Assembly (NCBI GenBank): GCA_017937095.1
Contig: JAGBEG010000022.1
Span: forward strand, 1-64,000
Length of the DNA: 64,000 nucleotides
Direction of reading: 5' to 3'
Source of the DNA: Roseburia sp.
GTDB lineage: Bacteria > Bacillota > Clostridia > Lachnospirales > Lachnospiraceae
Under the pieces are notes generated by a model. That model saw only the letters and a list, made by a program, of their open reading frames with translations, did no database searches and was not told the DNA's origin. The position numbers were made by a program, and so were the translations under genes. Below are positions 3,713 through 52,981 of this stretch, one piece after another. The first letter of the stretch is position 1, and every line of letters begins with the position of its first letter.

Positions 3713-5956
3713 ATGCTTAATGGACATTTTGAAAATTGTTACGGCTTAAAACAATTCAATCTACCAAATATAAATTTTACCCAATGCAATAAAGCACTTA
3801 TTTATGCCCCTAATGGTGTAATGAAAAGTTCCCTTTCAAAAGTTTTTGACGATATTTCAAAAGGGGCTGCAACAAGCGATCGTATCTTTCAGAATGTTGT
3901 CAGCAGTTATTCTGTGACACACTATACTAGCCAGTATGTTTTCAGTTCAGCTAATGCAGGAACCGTTCCAACTCCAACAGATCGCATTTATGTAGTTAAC
4001 ACTTTTTCAGATTCATTTGAATTTACAAAAGAAACTGTCAGCACCTTACTCGCAGATGAAACAACAAGAAATGCGTACAATGTTCTTATTGCACAGTTCA
4101 GCGGAGAAATTCGGCAAATTGAAGACAGATTGAGAGTCTTGACAGGACTAACCAAACCACAAATTAAAGGCAAACTTATCAATGATTTAAACTTAAATGC
4201 AACATCTGACTGGACAGATATTTTTGAAAAAATAAACGAATTAATTGCCAATCGCCAAATACTTGGGTATTTAGACAATTGCAAATATACCGAATTGTTC
4301 AATGATAAAGTCATGGCTGTTTACGGGAAAAGAGAATTTATTAATTCTGTCGAGTCATACATCTCAAATCTTAATTCCCTATTGGAAAATAACCCTATCC
4401 TAAACGAAAGATTCACTGAGCAGAATGCAGAAACTCTCGGAAAGGAATTGGCAAAGCATAATCTTTTTGACGCACATCACACAATTCGCTTGAAAGATGG
4501 CGTTACGGAAATCCATTCACTTGAAGAATGGAATGCTGTCGTGAATACTCAATTGGAAAGACTTTATACAGCACCAGAGCTCAGTACTATATTCCAGAAA
4601 TTAAAAAGAATGCTTACAGCTAATGGCGAAGTTTCTCGACTTCGAGATATCATCATAGCACACCGAGAAATAATTCCAGCGTTAAGGAACATAAGTACTT
4701 TAAAGGTGCAGACATGGCTGGATTGTTTTTCGAAGCTGGATGTTCCTTTTGCTGATTACTATGAGCGAATATCACAGTATACGACCCAAATCAGAGCATT
4801 GTACGAACAGGCATCTGCACAATCTCAAAGATGGCAAGCGGTAGTTGATGAATTTAACAGAAGATTTCGTGTTCCATTTGAAGTGCAAATTGAAAACAAA
4901 GCAAATTTCCTATTAAAAGATGAAGCGCCCAATTTAACATTCAAATATACAAGAGGAATCTTAACTCAACAGACAGCAACCTTGAAAAAAGGTGAATTAA
5001 TGGTTTCCTTAAGTACCGGAGAAAAACGTGCACTATATTTGCTATATATTCTTTTTGATCTTGAACGAATTCGGCAGCAAGCAAGTGCTGGCGGGGGGCA
5101 GTTCTTGATAATCGCAGACGACATAGCAGATTCATTCGATTATAAAAACAAGTATGCAATCATTGAATATCTGAATGATCTGGGAAATACTGCTGGTATT
5201 GACCTTTTAGTTCTTACCCATAATTTTGACTTTTATCGCACAATCAAGTTGAGATTAGGTGTTTCTCGCCCCAATTGCTATATTGCTCAGCGAGATGAAG
5301 AGGGTGTTGTTTCCATAACACAGTTTAAGTATCAAAGAGACTTTTTTAAGAATGTAGTCATCGAGGGTATTAAAGATGGTAATATTTCTGATGATAATAA
5401 GAAAAAATTATTATTTTCAAGCATACCATTTTATAGAAATCTTTGCGAGTATAGTGGAAAGGAGTCGGAATACTTACAGTTGACTTGTTTTTTACACTTG
5501 AAAACAAATCCTCTTGATACATTATCAGTTAAACTGTCCGATCTTTGGAACATAATTAACCCGTTTCTTAATAATGCACCATTCATTGGGATAGATGAGG
5601 ATTATTATTCTGCTATAATAAGAATTGCAAATATATGTGCTAATGATACTACTAATGAGGTTCTATTGGATAATAAACTTGTAATCGCTATCGCCATTCG
5701 TCTGTGTTCTGAGAAGTTTTTACAACGAACTATTACTGCTAATGGACAAACTTGCATCGATGCAAGTAGTAATCAAACAAGAGAATGGTTTATTCAAGCA
5801 GTGCCATTCTTAACCCCTGCTCAAAAAGCAATCATTGAGGAAGTAAATCTAATAACTCCAGAAAGTATCCATTTAAATTCCTTTATGTTTGAGCCATTAA
5901 TTGACATTTCGGATTGGGCACTTAAAGATCTTTATAATAAGATTTCACATTTGTAA
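3713..5956 (+). CDS. AAA_13/ABC-type ATPase partner of the PIN nuclease
   Basis: A 747-residue protein with an SMC/ABC-like ATPase head. Walker A is atypical, YAPNGVMKSS at residues 31-40, a form seen in AAA_13-like proteins; a long helical middle follows; the signature LSTGEKRA lies near residue 432, Walker B FLIIADDIADSFD near 464 and the switch histidine LTHNFDF near 501. The last 200 residues are helical and unassigned. Relatives include PrrC/RloC-type and other phage-sensing ATPases. It sits directly behind the PIN gene with its own ribosome site (AAGGAG). Likely role: ATP-dependent control of the PIN effector, by inference. Confidence 0.75.
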   Translation: MLNGHFENCYGLKQFNLPNINFTQCNKALIYAPNGVMKSSLSKVFDDISKGAATSDRIFQNVVSSYSVTHYTSQYVFSSANAGTVPTPTDRIYVVNTFSDSFEFTKETVSTLLADETTRNAYNVLIAQFSGEIRQIEDRLRVLTGLTKPQIKGKLINDLNLNATSDWTDIFEKINELIANRQILGYLDNCKYTELFNDKVMAVYGKREFINSVESYISNLNSLLENNPILNERFTEQNAETLGKELAKHNLFDAHHTIRLKDGVTEIHSLEEWNAVVNTQLERLYTAPELSTIFQKLKRMLTANGEVSRLRDIIIAHREIIPALRNISTLKVQTWLDCFSKLDVPFADYYERISQYTTQIRALYEQASAQSQRWQAVVDEFNRRFRVPFEVQIENKANFLLKDEAPNLTFKYTRGILTQQTATLKKGELMVSLSTGEKRALYLLYILFDLERIRQQASAGGGQFLIIADDIADSFDYKNKYAIIEYLNDLGNTAGIDLLVLTHNFDFYRTIKLRLGVSRPNCYIAQRDEEGVVSITQFKYQRDFFKNVVIEGIKDGNISDDNKKKLLFSSIPFYRNLCEYSGKESEYLQLTCFLHLKTNPLDTLSVKLSDLWNIINPFLNNAPFIGIDEDYYSAIIRIANICANDTTNEVLLDNKLVIAIAIRLCSEKFLQRTITANGQTCIDASSNQTREWFIQAVPFLTPAQKAIIEEVNLITPESIHLNSFMFEPLIDISDWALKDLYNKISHL

Positions 5957-6047
5957 ACTTTTGGGAATCCAATAATCATATCGCATAGAACAATTCAACA
6001 TGATGTGAGATCTTATGAGTGATTTCTAAACTTAATAATCAAAAATA

Positions 6048-6150
6048 CTGATGCCCAAAGAGCCTTTCGGCCCTCTGGGCATCAGTTATGTTATGGTTCG
6101 TGACCCATAACATAAAAAGGCACCATCCGACTTTCTCGGACAGTGCTTTC
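6048..6150 (+). terminator. Three consecutive hairpins after the ATPase gene
   Basis: Hairpin one (6048-6085) has 17-bp arms beginning CTGATGCCC with two wobble positions; hairpin two (6086-6115) has perfect 11-bp arms TTATGTTATGG/CCATAACATAA; hairpin three (6119-6146) has GCAC and TCCGA arms followed by TTTCTTT. Together they would stop transcription leaving the defence cassette. Confidence 0.65.
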
Positions 6151-6161
6151 TTTACAGTTGT

Positions 6162-6383
6162 CTGGGCATTATTATTTTGATATCGTATCTAATTTCATTT
6201 TTCAACTCATCCCACAGAATATCTACGTACCAATTACGTACCAATTTCCGTAGCAAATTCATAAAGATATATCGACTTTTATCGTTTTCAAAAATTCCTC
6301 TAGCACTTGAAATATCAAGCTTTATTGAACTTTATGGAGATATAGAAACTTGTATCGGAATCGTCAATTTATAACAATGCCCA
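6162..6383. repeat. MITE-like segment with terminal inverted repeats
   Basis: A 222-bp A+T-rich, non-coding segment bounded by 14-bp inverted ends (CTGGGCATTATTAT at 6162 and its complement with one mismatch ending at 6383). No clear target duplication is visible. The open frame inside has no ribosome site and no recognisable product. Nothing else is seen up to 6520. Confidence 0.35.
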
Positions 6384-48893: not shown

Positions 48894-48917
48894 TGCCCTT
48901 CCCCCATTTTTAAGTTT

Positions 48918-49148
48918 TCCACTACTGTACGGAAGGTTATTTACACCACGAACGCAATCGAAAGTCTGAATGCCACTTACCGGAAGCTGAACCGTCAGCG
49001 CAGCGTATTTCCAAGTGATACAGCGTTGCTGAAAGCACTCTATCTTTCAACCTTTGAGGCTACGAAAAAATGGACTATGCCGACACGGAACCGGGGACAG
49101 GTTTATGGCGAACTGAGTATCATGTACGAAGGATGTTTACCAGAATAA
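48918..49148 (+). pseudogene. IS256-family transposase, C-terminal remnant
   Basis: About 75 codons without a start: RKVIYTTNAIESLNATYRKL, NRQRSVFPSDTALLKALYLS and ATKKWTMP ending in YGELSIMYEG, the standard end of IS256 (Mutator-like) transposases. The DDE catalytic region is gone. Sequence to about 49310 probably includes the IS end. Confidence 0.85.
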
Positions 49149-49264: not shown

Positions 49265-49381
49265 AGTTATTATCATAGAAGATTTGTATTTACAGACTTT
49301 TGTTCACACACTCGTGTAACATATGTTTGACAAACCCACATTTTCAAAGTGGGGTAAGGAACCTACCCCATCTGCCCTTCA

Positions 49382-50239
49382 CTATTTAATATTTTTTGCC
49401 TCGGCAAGTAAAACAGCTTTTGCCAATGGATTAGTTGTCCTTTCAGCCAAAGATGCCGCATCATACTTGTCATTATAACTTAACGCCCTTCCGCTTAACC
49501 AAATATCTATTTGATAATCCTGTTCTTTTAAGATTTCAATATCTCTTTCTGAAATTTGCAAATATTCTGGTTTCATATACGCAAACAAACTCGTGGAAAT
49601 TTCTTGCTTTGGTAACTTCTTAATTTTAAATCCTTGTTCTTTCCAAGTAGATAATATTATCTTTTCACCATTATAAGGCACAGATTCACATTGCGAAACA
49701 AGGCTATCATACGTCATCACACGAATATCATTATCAGATTTTTCTGCAAACATTGCTCTTCGCTTTTCTGAATTATTTTTCTCAGAATTTCTTCCAATAA
49801 CTAACACATATTTAAACCTTACAGAATTCTCATTTAGAGGAACTCTTAATTTGTCTATTTGATGAAGAATTGCTTCTCTATTTTTATTTACATATGCCTT
49901 CCAAGATATAATCTGATCATATGCATGATTAAATTGTGAGTGAAAATAAATATTTTCCTTATCATTTGTAAAAATCTTCTTTTTTGCATCTTCCAATTCA
50001 ACTAATACAAATTCCCAATAATCAGAACTCTTAGTTAAATATGCAAAATCCGTCACAAATTCATTACCCAACTTAAATTTAGAAATCACGCAATTCATAT
50101 GCAAATGATGATTTAGTAAAAAAGGCATCGGAATAAATATAGTATTTTCCTCAAGAAATTCCTGTATCTGATTTTCTGTATTGCTTTTCTTCTCTATAAC
50201 ATCAAAATATTGTTGAACTAATTTTTCTTCTAAAATCAT
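49382..50239 (-). CDS. sduA: Shedu-type nuclease SduA (DUF4263)
   Basis: 285 residues. The N-terminal 120 residues carry the PD-(D/E)XK-like core of DUF4263: NQIQEFLEENTIFIP, EFVTDFAYLTKSSDYWEFVLVELEDAKKKIF (Asp64, Glu81, Glu83, Lys86) and FNHAYDQIISWKAYV. The usual E-x-K is E-L-E here. The C-terminal part (125-285) contains KYVLVIGRNSEKN and DIRVMTYDSLV. Shedu proteins are known anti-phage nucleases. The stop of the HEPN gene overlaps its start by four bases. Very A+T-rich compared with rlmD next door. Confidence 0.8.
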   Translation of the reverse strand: MILEEKLVQQYFDVIEKKSNTENQIQEFLEENTIFIPMPFLLNHHLHMNCVISKFKLGNEFVTDFAYLTKSSDYWEFVLVELEDAKKKIFTNDKENIYFHSQFNHAYDQIISWKAYVNKNREAILHQIDKLRVPLNENSVRFKYVLVIGRNSEKNNSEKRRAMFAEKSDNDIRVMTYDSLVSQCESVPYNGEKIILSTWKEQGFKIKKLPKQEISTSLFAYMKPEYLQISERDIEILKEQDYQIDIWLSGRALSYNDKYDAASLAERTTNPLAKAVLLAEAKNIK

Positions 50240-51201
50240 AATGTTTCCTCATCCTCAAATAATCTTCTGGTATTCATATCTTTTCCACAACAATTAGCAT
50301 TTTCTCCAAACATAAACTCTATAACACTCAGTGCATTCAAAATCTGTATACATTCATATCTTTCAACGCTTCTGCTCATTCGACCATGCATTAACCAATT
50401 TCTATTCAAATACGGAGGTTCGATGCCATTTTCGAACTTGTATGAACCGTCTATAAATATCCTATTCAAATATGTTATTAACGAAGGATACATTTCCAAA
50501 AAGTATATTTTCTTTGATATGAACCCTCGTTTTTCGGTAAGCTGTCTAAAATCCTCCGCCTTCTGATTTGCAAATCCCTCATTAGAATATTTAACTTTGT
50601 AACTCATACGTTGGTTCGGAAAATCAACTAATTTATTTACCCTATTATCAAGTAATGCAAGCAAGTACATAGCTGCAGTCATATAATCTTCATTTTCAAA
50701 AGCCTGCATACCATTCTTAAAATATAACTGTATCTCGTCTGAAACGTACTTTTCCTGTAACCCCTCTATAATCGCATCAAGAATTACAATATCTTCTCCG
50801 TCAAAAAACTCTGCTACCTTTGCTTCCCCTTCACATAATAATTGTTCCCAATTCTTAATATCTGCAGGATTTGAATGCTCAGAAATAACCCATCCATTTT
50901 TCCCGAACTTTTCACTCCACTCAATCTCAGCCCTATATTTTTCTTCAAATTCAGATTCTGTTAAACCTTCATTTTCGCTGACCTCTTGCTCATAATTTTT
51001 AAGCATTTCTGCCAGCTTTAAAAGCCCCGGCATATTGTTAAGCGACTTTTTCCATTCATTTAGTTTGTCACTGAGTTCTTGAAATTTTGCTAACGCTTCT
51101 GGAGATATCGCTTTCGTAACATTTTTATATAATTCTTTCTGCTTCTTGGCTATCTCAAATGCTTTCCTATACTCCTGTGAATTCTCAAAATCATTACTCA
51201 T
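50236..51201 (-). CDS. HEPN-motif protein, partner of SduA
   Basis: 321 residues from ATG 51201 (GAGGATGAG upstream). A GTG at 51336 behind GGAGG is an alternative; the frame between is open. N-terminal half is charged and helical (coiled-coil-like near 15-75). The C-terminal half carries YLNRNWLMHGRMSRSVERYE near 264, an R-x4-H motif typical of HEPN ribonucleases, in an all-helical region. Translation is coupled to sduA. An RNA-cleaving toxin or sensor role is inference. No exact family recognised. Confidence 0.65.
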   Translation of the reverse strand: MSNDFENSQEYRKAFEIAKKQKELYKNVTKAISPEALAKFQELSDKLNEWKKSLNNMPGLLKLAEMLKNYEQEVSENEGLTESEFEEKYRAEIEWSEKFGKNGWVISEHSNPADIKNWEQLLCEGEAKVAEFFDGEDIVILDAIIEGLQEKYVSDEIQLYFKNGMQAFENEDYMTAAMYLLALLDNRVNKLVDFPNQRMSYKVKYSNEGFANQKAEDFRQLTEKRGFISKKIYFLEMYPSLITYLNRIFIDGSYKFENGIEPPYLNRNWLMHGRMSRSVERYECIQILNALSVIEFMFGENANCCGKDMNTRRLFEDEETL

Positions 51202-51373
51202 CTTCTCATCCTCATGACGTGAAACAACTTTTGCGAAAAAGTACCCTTTCGCCAAAATGTATATCTCCTGTTCCCCAAAGCCTATCCACTGAGGTAAACC
51301 TCCGGTTATATCATCACTCCACGGAACCAGAAACACACATCCTTTTTCCTCCAAAATGGAAAAATTCTTTGAT

Positions 51374-52981
51374 TTATTGGACTTCTCTCGACAGAAGACA
51401 CACGGTTTCCACATGCACCGTCCCCGGAAACATATCCACACAGCACACCTTCTTCACCTCATACCCCCTGGCCTGCAGCACCTCAAGATCCCGCGCCAGG
51501 CTCGTCGGCTTACAGGAAATATAGACCATCTGCGGCACACCATAACGGATGATCTTCTCGAGCGCCTTCGGGTGAATCCCATCCCGCGGCGGGTCAAGCA
51601 CAATGTAATCCGGCTTATCAGCAATCTCATCAATGACCTTTAACACATCCCCGGCGATAAACTCACAGTTATGTAGATCATTGAGTCCGGCATTCTCCCG
51701 CGCCGCGTCCACAGCCTCCGGGACAATCTCCACACCGATCACCTTACCCGCAACCGGAGAGAGCATCTGCGCGATCGTGCCTGTTCCAGAATACAGGTCA
51801 AATACGACCTTCCCGCAAATTTCCTTCCCGCCGGACTGCTCCACCGCAGAGTCTTCCTCACCCGCTGCCTCAGACGCTTCCGCTTCGGACTGCGCCGCCT
51901 CCGTCAGTGCATCCCCGATAAACTCGCGCGCCGTCTCGTAGAGCACTTCCGCCCCAAGCGAATTTGTCTGGAAAAAGGAAAACGGCGTAATCTTAAACCG
52001 CAGTCCAAGCAGCTCTTCATAGAAATAATCCTGTCCGAAAAGCACGTCTGTTCCCTCATTCGTCACGGTATCGGCAACGCTGTCATTTCTCGTATGGAGA
52101 ATCCCCGTCAACGTTCCGTCATAGGACGCTGCAAGCAGCGCATCCCTCCATCCATCGAGCAGTTCCTCTTCCCTGCTCTGAGACCGCAGATTCTGTCCTT
52201 CCGTCTCATAGTTCCCCGCCGCGCGGCATTCTGCTTCTCCCTTCTGTCCTCCGTCATCCGGAATCCGTTCCGCCTTGACCGAATCACATCTGCAATCGTC
52301 ATTCAGTTGTGTCGTCGTCACCAGATCAACGAGAATCTCACCTGTCTTTGCAGCCTTTCGCACCAGAAGATGTCTCAGATATCCCGTATGGCGCAGCTTA
52401 TGATAATAAGAAATCTTTCTCTCCTTAAAATACGAAAGCGTCACGGAAAGAACCGTGCGGAAATCCTCATCCACGATCTGGCATTCCGGCACATTTACGA
52501 TATCATAAAAACTGCCGCGCTTATGCATTCCAAGCGCGAGCGGTCCGTCCTTATACTCGTCGCCGAAAGAAAATTCCATCTTATTGCGGTAGCCCTTCTG
52601 CCTTGGGCTCTCCTTGATTCCAAGAAACTCGTAGCCCGCGCTCTCCGGCGCGATCACATCGTCAATCAGCTTCTTTACCTGCGCCGCCTTCAGCGCAAGC
52701 TGTTCCTCATACGGCAGGCTCTGATACATACAGCCGCCGCATTCGCCTGCATGAACGCAGCCCGCTTCCGCCAGTTCGAGCGGCGACTTCTCCAAAACAG
52801 ACAGAAGACGTCCCTCGCATTTGCCCCCTCGCACCTTATTGATCGATGCGGACACCTTCTGTCCCGCAATGGTGTTCTTTACGATCACACGTCCGCCATC
52901 CTCCGTCACAACGATTCCTTTATTCGGGAACTCCACACGCTCCACAACTCCCTCGATTACCTGTCCCTTTTTCAAACCCAA
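51374..52981 (-). CDS. rlmD: 23S rRNA U1939 (or U747) m5U-methyltransferase
   Basis: 535 residues, about 80 longer than usual. TRAM domain (1-60), iron-sulfur cysteines CVHAGECGGCMYQ near 73, FFQTNSLGAEVLYE near 340, FDLYSGTGTIAQML near 398, VLDPPRDGIHPKALE near 465 and the catalytic Cys in MVYISCKPTSLARDL. Extra length comes from hydrophilic low-complexity inserts near residues 225-270 and 355-390. Also called RumA-type; the exact uridine cannot be read from sequence. Confidence 0.92.
   Translation of the reverse strand: MGLKKGQVIEGVVERVEFPNKGIVVTEDGGRVIVKNTIAGQKVSASINKVRGGKCEGRLLSVLEKSPLELAEAGCVHAGECGGCMYQSLPYEEQLALKAAQVKKLIDDVIAPESAGYEFLGIKESPRQKGYRNKMEFSFGDEYKDGPLALGMHKRGSFYDIVNVPECQIVDEDFRTVLSVTLSYFKERKISYYHKLRHTGYLRHLLVRKAAKTGEILVDLVTTTQLNDDCRCDSVKAERIPDDGGQKGEAECRAAGNYETEGQNLRSQSREEELLDGWRDALLAASYDGTLTGILHTRNDSVADTVTNEGTDVLFGQDYFYEELLGLRFKITPFSFFQTNSLGAEVLYETAREFIGDALTEAAQSEAEASEAAGEEDSAVEQSGGKEICGKVVFDLYSGTGTIAQMLSPVAGKVIGVEIVPEAVDAARENAGLNDLHNCEFIAGDVLKVIDEIADKPDYIVLDPPRDGIHPKALEKIIRYGVPQMVYISCKPTSLARDLEVLQARGYEVKKVCCVDMFPGTVHVETVCLLSREVQ

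Follow-up and report, generated by a model that had tools for sequence, protein, structure and literature searches.

A Shedu nuclease gene and a HEPN-family gene as probable exchangeable cargo in a mobile slot for defence genes behind rlmD in Roseburia

Does the overlap of two putative nuclease genes mean that their products work together? The question is raised by a locus in a 64,000-nucleotide stretch of Roseburia sp. DNA (contig JAGBEG010000022.1; the whole stretch is called the window here), in which sduA, a gene of the Shedu nuclease family, overlaps the end of a gene for a protein with a HEPN-like domain. An earlier note on this DNA had read the two as a composite defence system of a DNA nuclease and an RNA nuclease. 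Our comparisons favor another explanation, namely that the pair is probably shuffled cargo of a mobile slot that serine recombinases would use at the 3′ end of rlmD (rumA), and whose defence genes swap independently. The argument rests on the following features:

49382..50239, minus strand: sduA, Shedu (DUF4263) nuclease-family gene, 285 amino acids (aa), assigned by Pfam, PADLOC and alignments
50236..51201, minus strand: HEPN-family gene, 321 aa, with a helical N-terminal half and a C-terminal HEPN-like domain
50236..50239, minus strand: ATGA overlap (4 bp) of the HEPN gene and sduA, a point of neighbor exchange by comparison with L046, L047 and L022 (loci described below)
51205..51403, minus strand: conserved left end of the slot, comprising the last rlmD codons and a leader, with an imperfect palindrome close to the cargo side; 86% identical to Eubacterium plexicaudatum
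51374..52981, minus strand: rlmD/rumA-type methyltransferase gene, its 3′ end the putative landing site

Each gene of the pair has close relatives with a different neighbor. In E. plexicaudatum ASF492 (Clostridia; locus L022), the DNA from the start codon of sduA on matches that of the window at 94% identity over 900 bp, and a gene for an Mrr_cat-type nuclease stands in place of the HEPN gene. This alignment contains three one-base gaps, and two overlapping frames are needed to read the Mrr-type region, features that may be sequencing errors. Two further loci, L046 (genome G432) and L047 (G299), encode HEPN proteins 91 and 92% identical to that of the window, followed after a gap of 12 bp by a gene for a 270-aa HNH-type protein. 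A C-terminal tail of about 20 residues (residues ~301–321 of the window HEPN protein) is missing from both of these homologues, and its position is exactly where the neighboring genes of the window and of L046 and L047 differ. A dedicated two-gene system of Shedu and HEPN proteins is not supported by these sequences, because either gene has close relatives in which the other gene is replaced. The earlier note had itself held that this SduA, found in other genomes without its partner and equally protective, would speak against a composite, and, at the level of sequence, L022 bears out the first half of this.

A neighborhood search for DUF4263 genes with the same partner, which the earlier note had proposed, revealed no second pair at any examined locus. 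The HEPN-family profile had no match in 621 open reading frames (ORFs) from the examined flanks of 27 SduA loci (1.9–10.8 kb each, with L021 repeating part of L018, and with distant neighbors outside this scope), and plasmid and chromosomal SduA relatives had no HEPN relative within the examined flanks. The SduA profile, in turn, had no match among 1645 ORFs from the examined flanks of the 49 loci collected for the HEPN family or the left end, and SduA was found in none of ten viral-contig loci with a HEPN relative. Single-protein searches of viral contigs returned close relatives of neither SduA nor the HEPN protein, and tblastn of the HEPN partner against plasmids and phages gave no match. 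A match at L004, by eye a long protease-like ORF, was taken as chance and dropped.

What the exchanged genes have in common is the DNA in front of them. The left end spans ~190 bp, begins inside the methyltransferase gene and stops just before the first cargo gene; by comparison, the last rlmD codons belong to the shared moving stretch, with the conserved leader next to them. Ahead of the HEPN gene, starting inside the 3′ end of rlmD, the window and L022 are 84% identical over 248 bp. The left end was found in 12 of 150 genomes of the family with the window sequence as query and in 34 of 397 with the L022 sequence, the query's own genome being counted in each case. The 28 loci examined comprise 26 from 24 of those 34 genomes, together with L022 and the viral contig L078; the 10 other genomes gave weak matches, and the neighbors at some loci (e.g., around L080) were covered in part. 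By a motif rule, the left end lies behind an RlmD/TrmA-like ORF ending in the shared stretch at 17 of the 28 loci, behind a large serine recombinase (LSR)-like ORF at three and behind neither at eight, and among these eight an RlmD-like gene (L085) and an LSR-like gene (L093) each end slightly further upstream. The stretch follows several different RlmD/TrmA-type genes, and in L046, L054 and L078 it lies away from a methyltransferase gene. These alignments indicate that the methyltransferase gene ends in an element-derived tail. Left-end DNA was found in no plasmids or phages, the viral contigs gave one exact pattern match (L078), and the 29-base palindrome, used as a blastn query, had no match listed. 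As a DNA signature, the left end makes it possible to gather fast-changing defence-type genes across one bacterial family.

Behind the cargo, 16 of the 28 loci have a second conserved end, at least 195 bp long in 10 of them (15 of 27 and nine, respectively, without L022, the source of the query); in L053, L086 and L092 the contig stops less than 130 bp from the left end, so the right end is unobservable there. The left end (~3780–4010) and right end (5879–6240) of L022 share a 36-bp inverted match that none of 500 shuffles reaches, and four genomes are listed with an inverted match of this kind. By eye, the right ends of L022, L047, L049 and L050 close with a promoter-like stretch, TTGACT-N17-TAATAT. 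A TTAC-N4-GTAA dyad overlapping this stretch presumably resembles a BlaI/MecI operator.

Serine recombinase genes adjoin the same DNA at a few loci. In L082 and L084, Pfam-confirmed LSR genes run in frame into the same leader, and their C-terminal residues, ETVCLLSRKAQ and ETICLLSRKAR, resemble those of rlmD. L082 has three recombinase genes, whole or in part, and resembles a stack of elements. As described in the accessible text on streptococcal elements, single serine integrases target rumA, and integration swaps the 3′ parts of rumA and the integrase gene (PMC4701971).

The cargo between the ends is varied. Besides the window pair, the Mrr_cat protein of L022 and the HNH-type protein of L046 and L047, it includes a SEC-C protein and a DUF6602/PD-DExK-like protein (L049), and cargo proteins with weak matches only (L050 and L079). 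In a group with a related left end (L054, L087 and L088) there follow, by eye, a gene for an HTH-like protein of 97 aa, nearly identical between the loci, and a type I restriction-like gene. Beyond the right end, L049 and L082 each encode a P-loop NTPase of 625 aa whose first and last residues agree between the two, and the genes after it in L049 appear to resemble a Qat operon. At L046, ~5.6–6.8 kb past the left end, ORFs of a repeated ISIHVPARGTT-like peptide suggest a CRISPR array.

Within the window itself, the downstream side of the slot is marked by two remnants:

49340..49358, minus strand: right-end remnant, 19 bp, cut off near the IS256-type fragment
48909..49148, plus strand: IS256/Mutator-family transposase gene, 3′ fragment (Transposase_mut, 3.4e-10)

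The setting described in the earlier note is confirmed. The pair does lie behind an RlmD/TrmA-type 5-methyluridine methyltransferase gene, next to an IS256 scar now recognizable as the Mutator-family fragment; the four-base overlap is present, as ATGA, with the upstream ORF ending at 50236; and the A+T-richness of both genes is evident from a G+C content of 27–36% over the pair against 38–59% over the rest of the 44–56 kb region. The low G+C, together with a left end common to other genomes, bears out the description of the locus as transferred cargo. Both reading frames are intact, and both genes look selected, because their differences from close relatives are concentrated at third codon positions (41 of 61 and 32 of 47). 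The HEPN gene and sduA likely form one transcription unit, and in our judgment the 4-bp overlap may well reflect co-expression and a recent junction, rather than an evolved complex. Close overlap of two genes at a defence locus can be a recombination junction, from which a joint system need not follow.

The Shedu assignment proposed earlier holds. The protein matches SduA_C (7e-30; 104.7 bits, cut-off 27), and the PADLOC SduA model PDLC00378 covers residues 4–281 (9.1e-106, 351.5 bits); the gene at 49382–50239 is a Shedu family member by virtue of its DUF4263/SduA_C domain. Its active site reads E81-x-E83, and the canonical PD-(D/E)xK lysine is not at its usual place. This E-x-E is found in all 11 rows of SduA alignment A5, and in 11 of 14 rows of a wider comparison, with E-x-K in the other three (L009, L012 and L013); the variant is common to many other SduA loci, and Shedu membership rests on the domain match. 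A lysine, K54, is invariant in A5, ten residues N-terminal of the likely catalytic aspartate D64, and may substitute for the canonical catalytic lysine; in Vibrio Shedu, according to the accessible text, a lysine mutant is inactive (PMC12137116), so that activity of the E-x-E subfamily is only putative. The window SduA has no large N-terminal domain, which acts as a regulator in other Shedu proteins as described in the available parts of two reports (PMC12137116, PMC12904381). By analogy, the window SduA is most likely a nuclease that would act on phage DNA. At L047 (8422–9231), the first 100 residues of the HNH-type protein match another PADLOC SduA model, PDLC00406 (5.1e-8), and an HNH-type domain may be carried fused in some Shedu proteins.

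The HEPN-family protein is known chiefly from its C-terminal half:

50296..50766, minus strand: HEPN-like domain, residues 146–302, from the predicted fold
50386..50403, minus strand: R-x4-H motif RNWLMH, residues 267–272, with R and H invariant in two family alignments

The likely start is the ATG at 51201, giving 321 aa, whereas the mechanical ORF is longer (401 aa from a GTG); two close homologues begin with the identical MSNDFENSQEY, backing the ATG. A coding role for the 0.2 kb upstream was rejected, this being the leader common to loci with other first genes. The R-x4-H motif alone is weak evidence, because 365 of 5000 shuffles of the protein contain one; of the 48 mechanical ORFs in the window that have at least 150 aa and do not overlap, 18 contain one too. 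Structure prediction, which the earlier note had called for, models the C-terminal domain as HEPN-like, and this fold together with the conservation of the motif upholds the note's recognition of a HEPN motif in a helical C-terminal region. N266, R267, W269, H272 and G273 are invariant in alignment A3 (the window protein and 11 relatives; L068 of G418, a short broken match, and L071 of G662, a truncated ORF, excluded) and also in A4 (the window protein and nine viral-contig relatives, mostly 13–21% identical to it; L102, whose protein is the same as that of L101, excluded). The window protein had no NCBIfam match and no Pfam match above the cut-off, 12 family members had no convincing Pfam or PADLOC match, and the profile found nothing convincing among sequences of solved structures; weak, short or partial matches to eIF3m_C_helix, DExH14_plug and FliJ (Pfam) and to MTase_II (PADLOC) were discarded. 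In viral contigs L097, L099 and L101–L103, the relatives lie, by eye, among terminase-, portal- and protease-like genes, that is, among packaging and head-type genes, where phages may carry defence genes. At L072 (6476–7309), a relative and the gene after it, which is unrelated and encodes 365 aa, likewise share 4 bp, with no SduA there.

From these observations the history of the locus can probably be reconstructed as follows. An LSR element would have integrated at the 3′ end of rlmD, a step that we infer from the specificity for rumA and from the LSR genes that share this tail and leader. Next to the leader, nuclease or other genes would be exchanged between bacteria, one at a time or in pairs, probably through homologous recombination in the shared ends or through repeated integration. 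In the window, such exchange would have brought together, in one likely transcription unit, a HEPN gene directed at RNA and a Shedu gene directed at DNA, and each protein, to judge from its family, most likely protects alone. Several observations weigh against this account. No recombinase gene was recognized by eye among the listed ORFs around the window cargo, the right end there is reduced to 19 bp, and the direct repeat between the ends is weak, its score being equaled in 14 of 500 shuffles. A survey of LSRs found target genes not enriched within or near anti-phage genes and, in its accessible main text, does not mention rumA (PMC10083194), nor does the available text of PMC6907783; defence content would therefore belong to the cargo rather than to the target. 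Neither Pfam nor the defence models match, at 0.01, four of the 10 cargo proteins scanned (those of L048, L082 and L083, and that of the second L089 gene), and defence is for this reason an extrapolation for part of the slot. Finally, a DNA-nuclease-type gene follows the HEPN gene in three of three slot loci (the window, L046 and L047), and functional coupling therefore also fits.

Such coupling could take the form of a generic front module, in which the HEPN protein serves as sensor, regulator or second effector for exchangeable DNA nuclease partners, a proposal we consider unlikely. It would accommodate both the gene order, with the HEPN gene preceding SduA at a gap of −4 bp or the HNH-type gene at 12 bp, and the missing N-terminal regulatory domain of SduA (PMC12137116, PMC12904381, as available), and it agrees with the signs of selection in both genes. 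Outside the slot it fares less well: the ten viral-contig HEPN loci have no SduA, with a next gene that is phage structural or packaging-like by eye in L097, L099 and L101–L103, the next gene in L067 is kinase-like by eye, and plasmid and chromosomal SduA relatives have no HEPN relative in the examined flanks. It is similarly improbable that a constant HEPN RNase acts as a universal front partner for exchangeable Shedu and HNH nucleases, with RNA-plus-DNA nuclease pairs assembled combinatorially in the rlmD serine-recombinase slot as its defence genes swap singly.

The composite of the earlier note, in which both proteins are needed, draws on the translational overlap, the low G+C of both genes and their intact frames, and yet we think it very unlikely, given the replacement of one gene or the other in L022, L046 and L047, the lack of a second pair among the examined loci and the L072 relative that makes the same overlap with an unrelated gene. 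There is only a slight chance that the locus is in decay and no longer functions. The truncated right end, the nearby transposase fragment and the atypical E-x-E would suit decay, but both frames are intact with differences concentrated at third codon positions, and E-x-E is the rule throughout A5. Independent exchange of cargo within the slot remains our preferred explanation.

How do the two proteins and their slot compare with known systems? The window SduA shares with Shedu the SduA_C domain and a near full-length PADLOC match, and differs in lacking the large N-terminal domain, in having E-x-E for E-x-K and in standing behind a HEPN-family gene. The HEPN protein recalls Tha, an anti-phage HEPN RNase of Staphylococcus aureus prophages, in its length of ~300 aa with no recognized N-terminal domain, in a C-terminal R-x4-H at a like position (R265/H270 in Tha, R267/H272 in the window) and in relatives in viral contigs, as far as the accessible text of PMC11087260 describes it. 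A profile search relating the family to Tha-1 and Tha-2 gave no match, and hhalign placed the motifs in register at probabilities of 2.7% and 1.5%, with E-values of 0.017 and 0.033 that come from single comparisons. By analogy, the HEPN protein is predicted probably to act as Tha does, activated by infection, and the family is a testable candidate for a Tha-like, phage-carried RNase family.

For the slot, SCC elements in rlmH provide a precedent: they are cassettes with serine recombinases, located where a gene for a 23S rRNA methyltransferase ends (3′), but gene, host and ends are different. The single-serine-integrase elements at rumA, streptococcal integrative and conjugative elements, insert in the accessible descriptions into the 3′ part of a methyltransferase gene of this kind and exchange gene tails, and LSR genes with a similar tail occur among the slot loci, whereas the window cargo is compact, lies between two conserved ends and has no adjoining integrase recognized. 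In the literature, the rumA target is known from streptococcal elements; we did not find a description of this slot and do not claim that none is in print. Defence hotspots of phages, satellites and islands likewise hold variable antiviral genes within mobile elements, according to the available text of two studies (PMC9122126, PMC12629846), and the window slot differs from them in its position, which is the rlmD-side end of elements of the LSR type within the bacterial family of the window.
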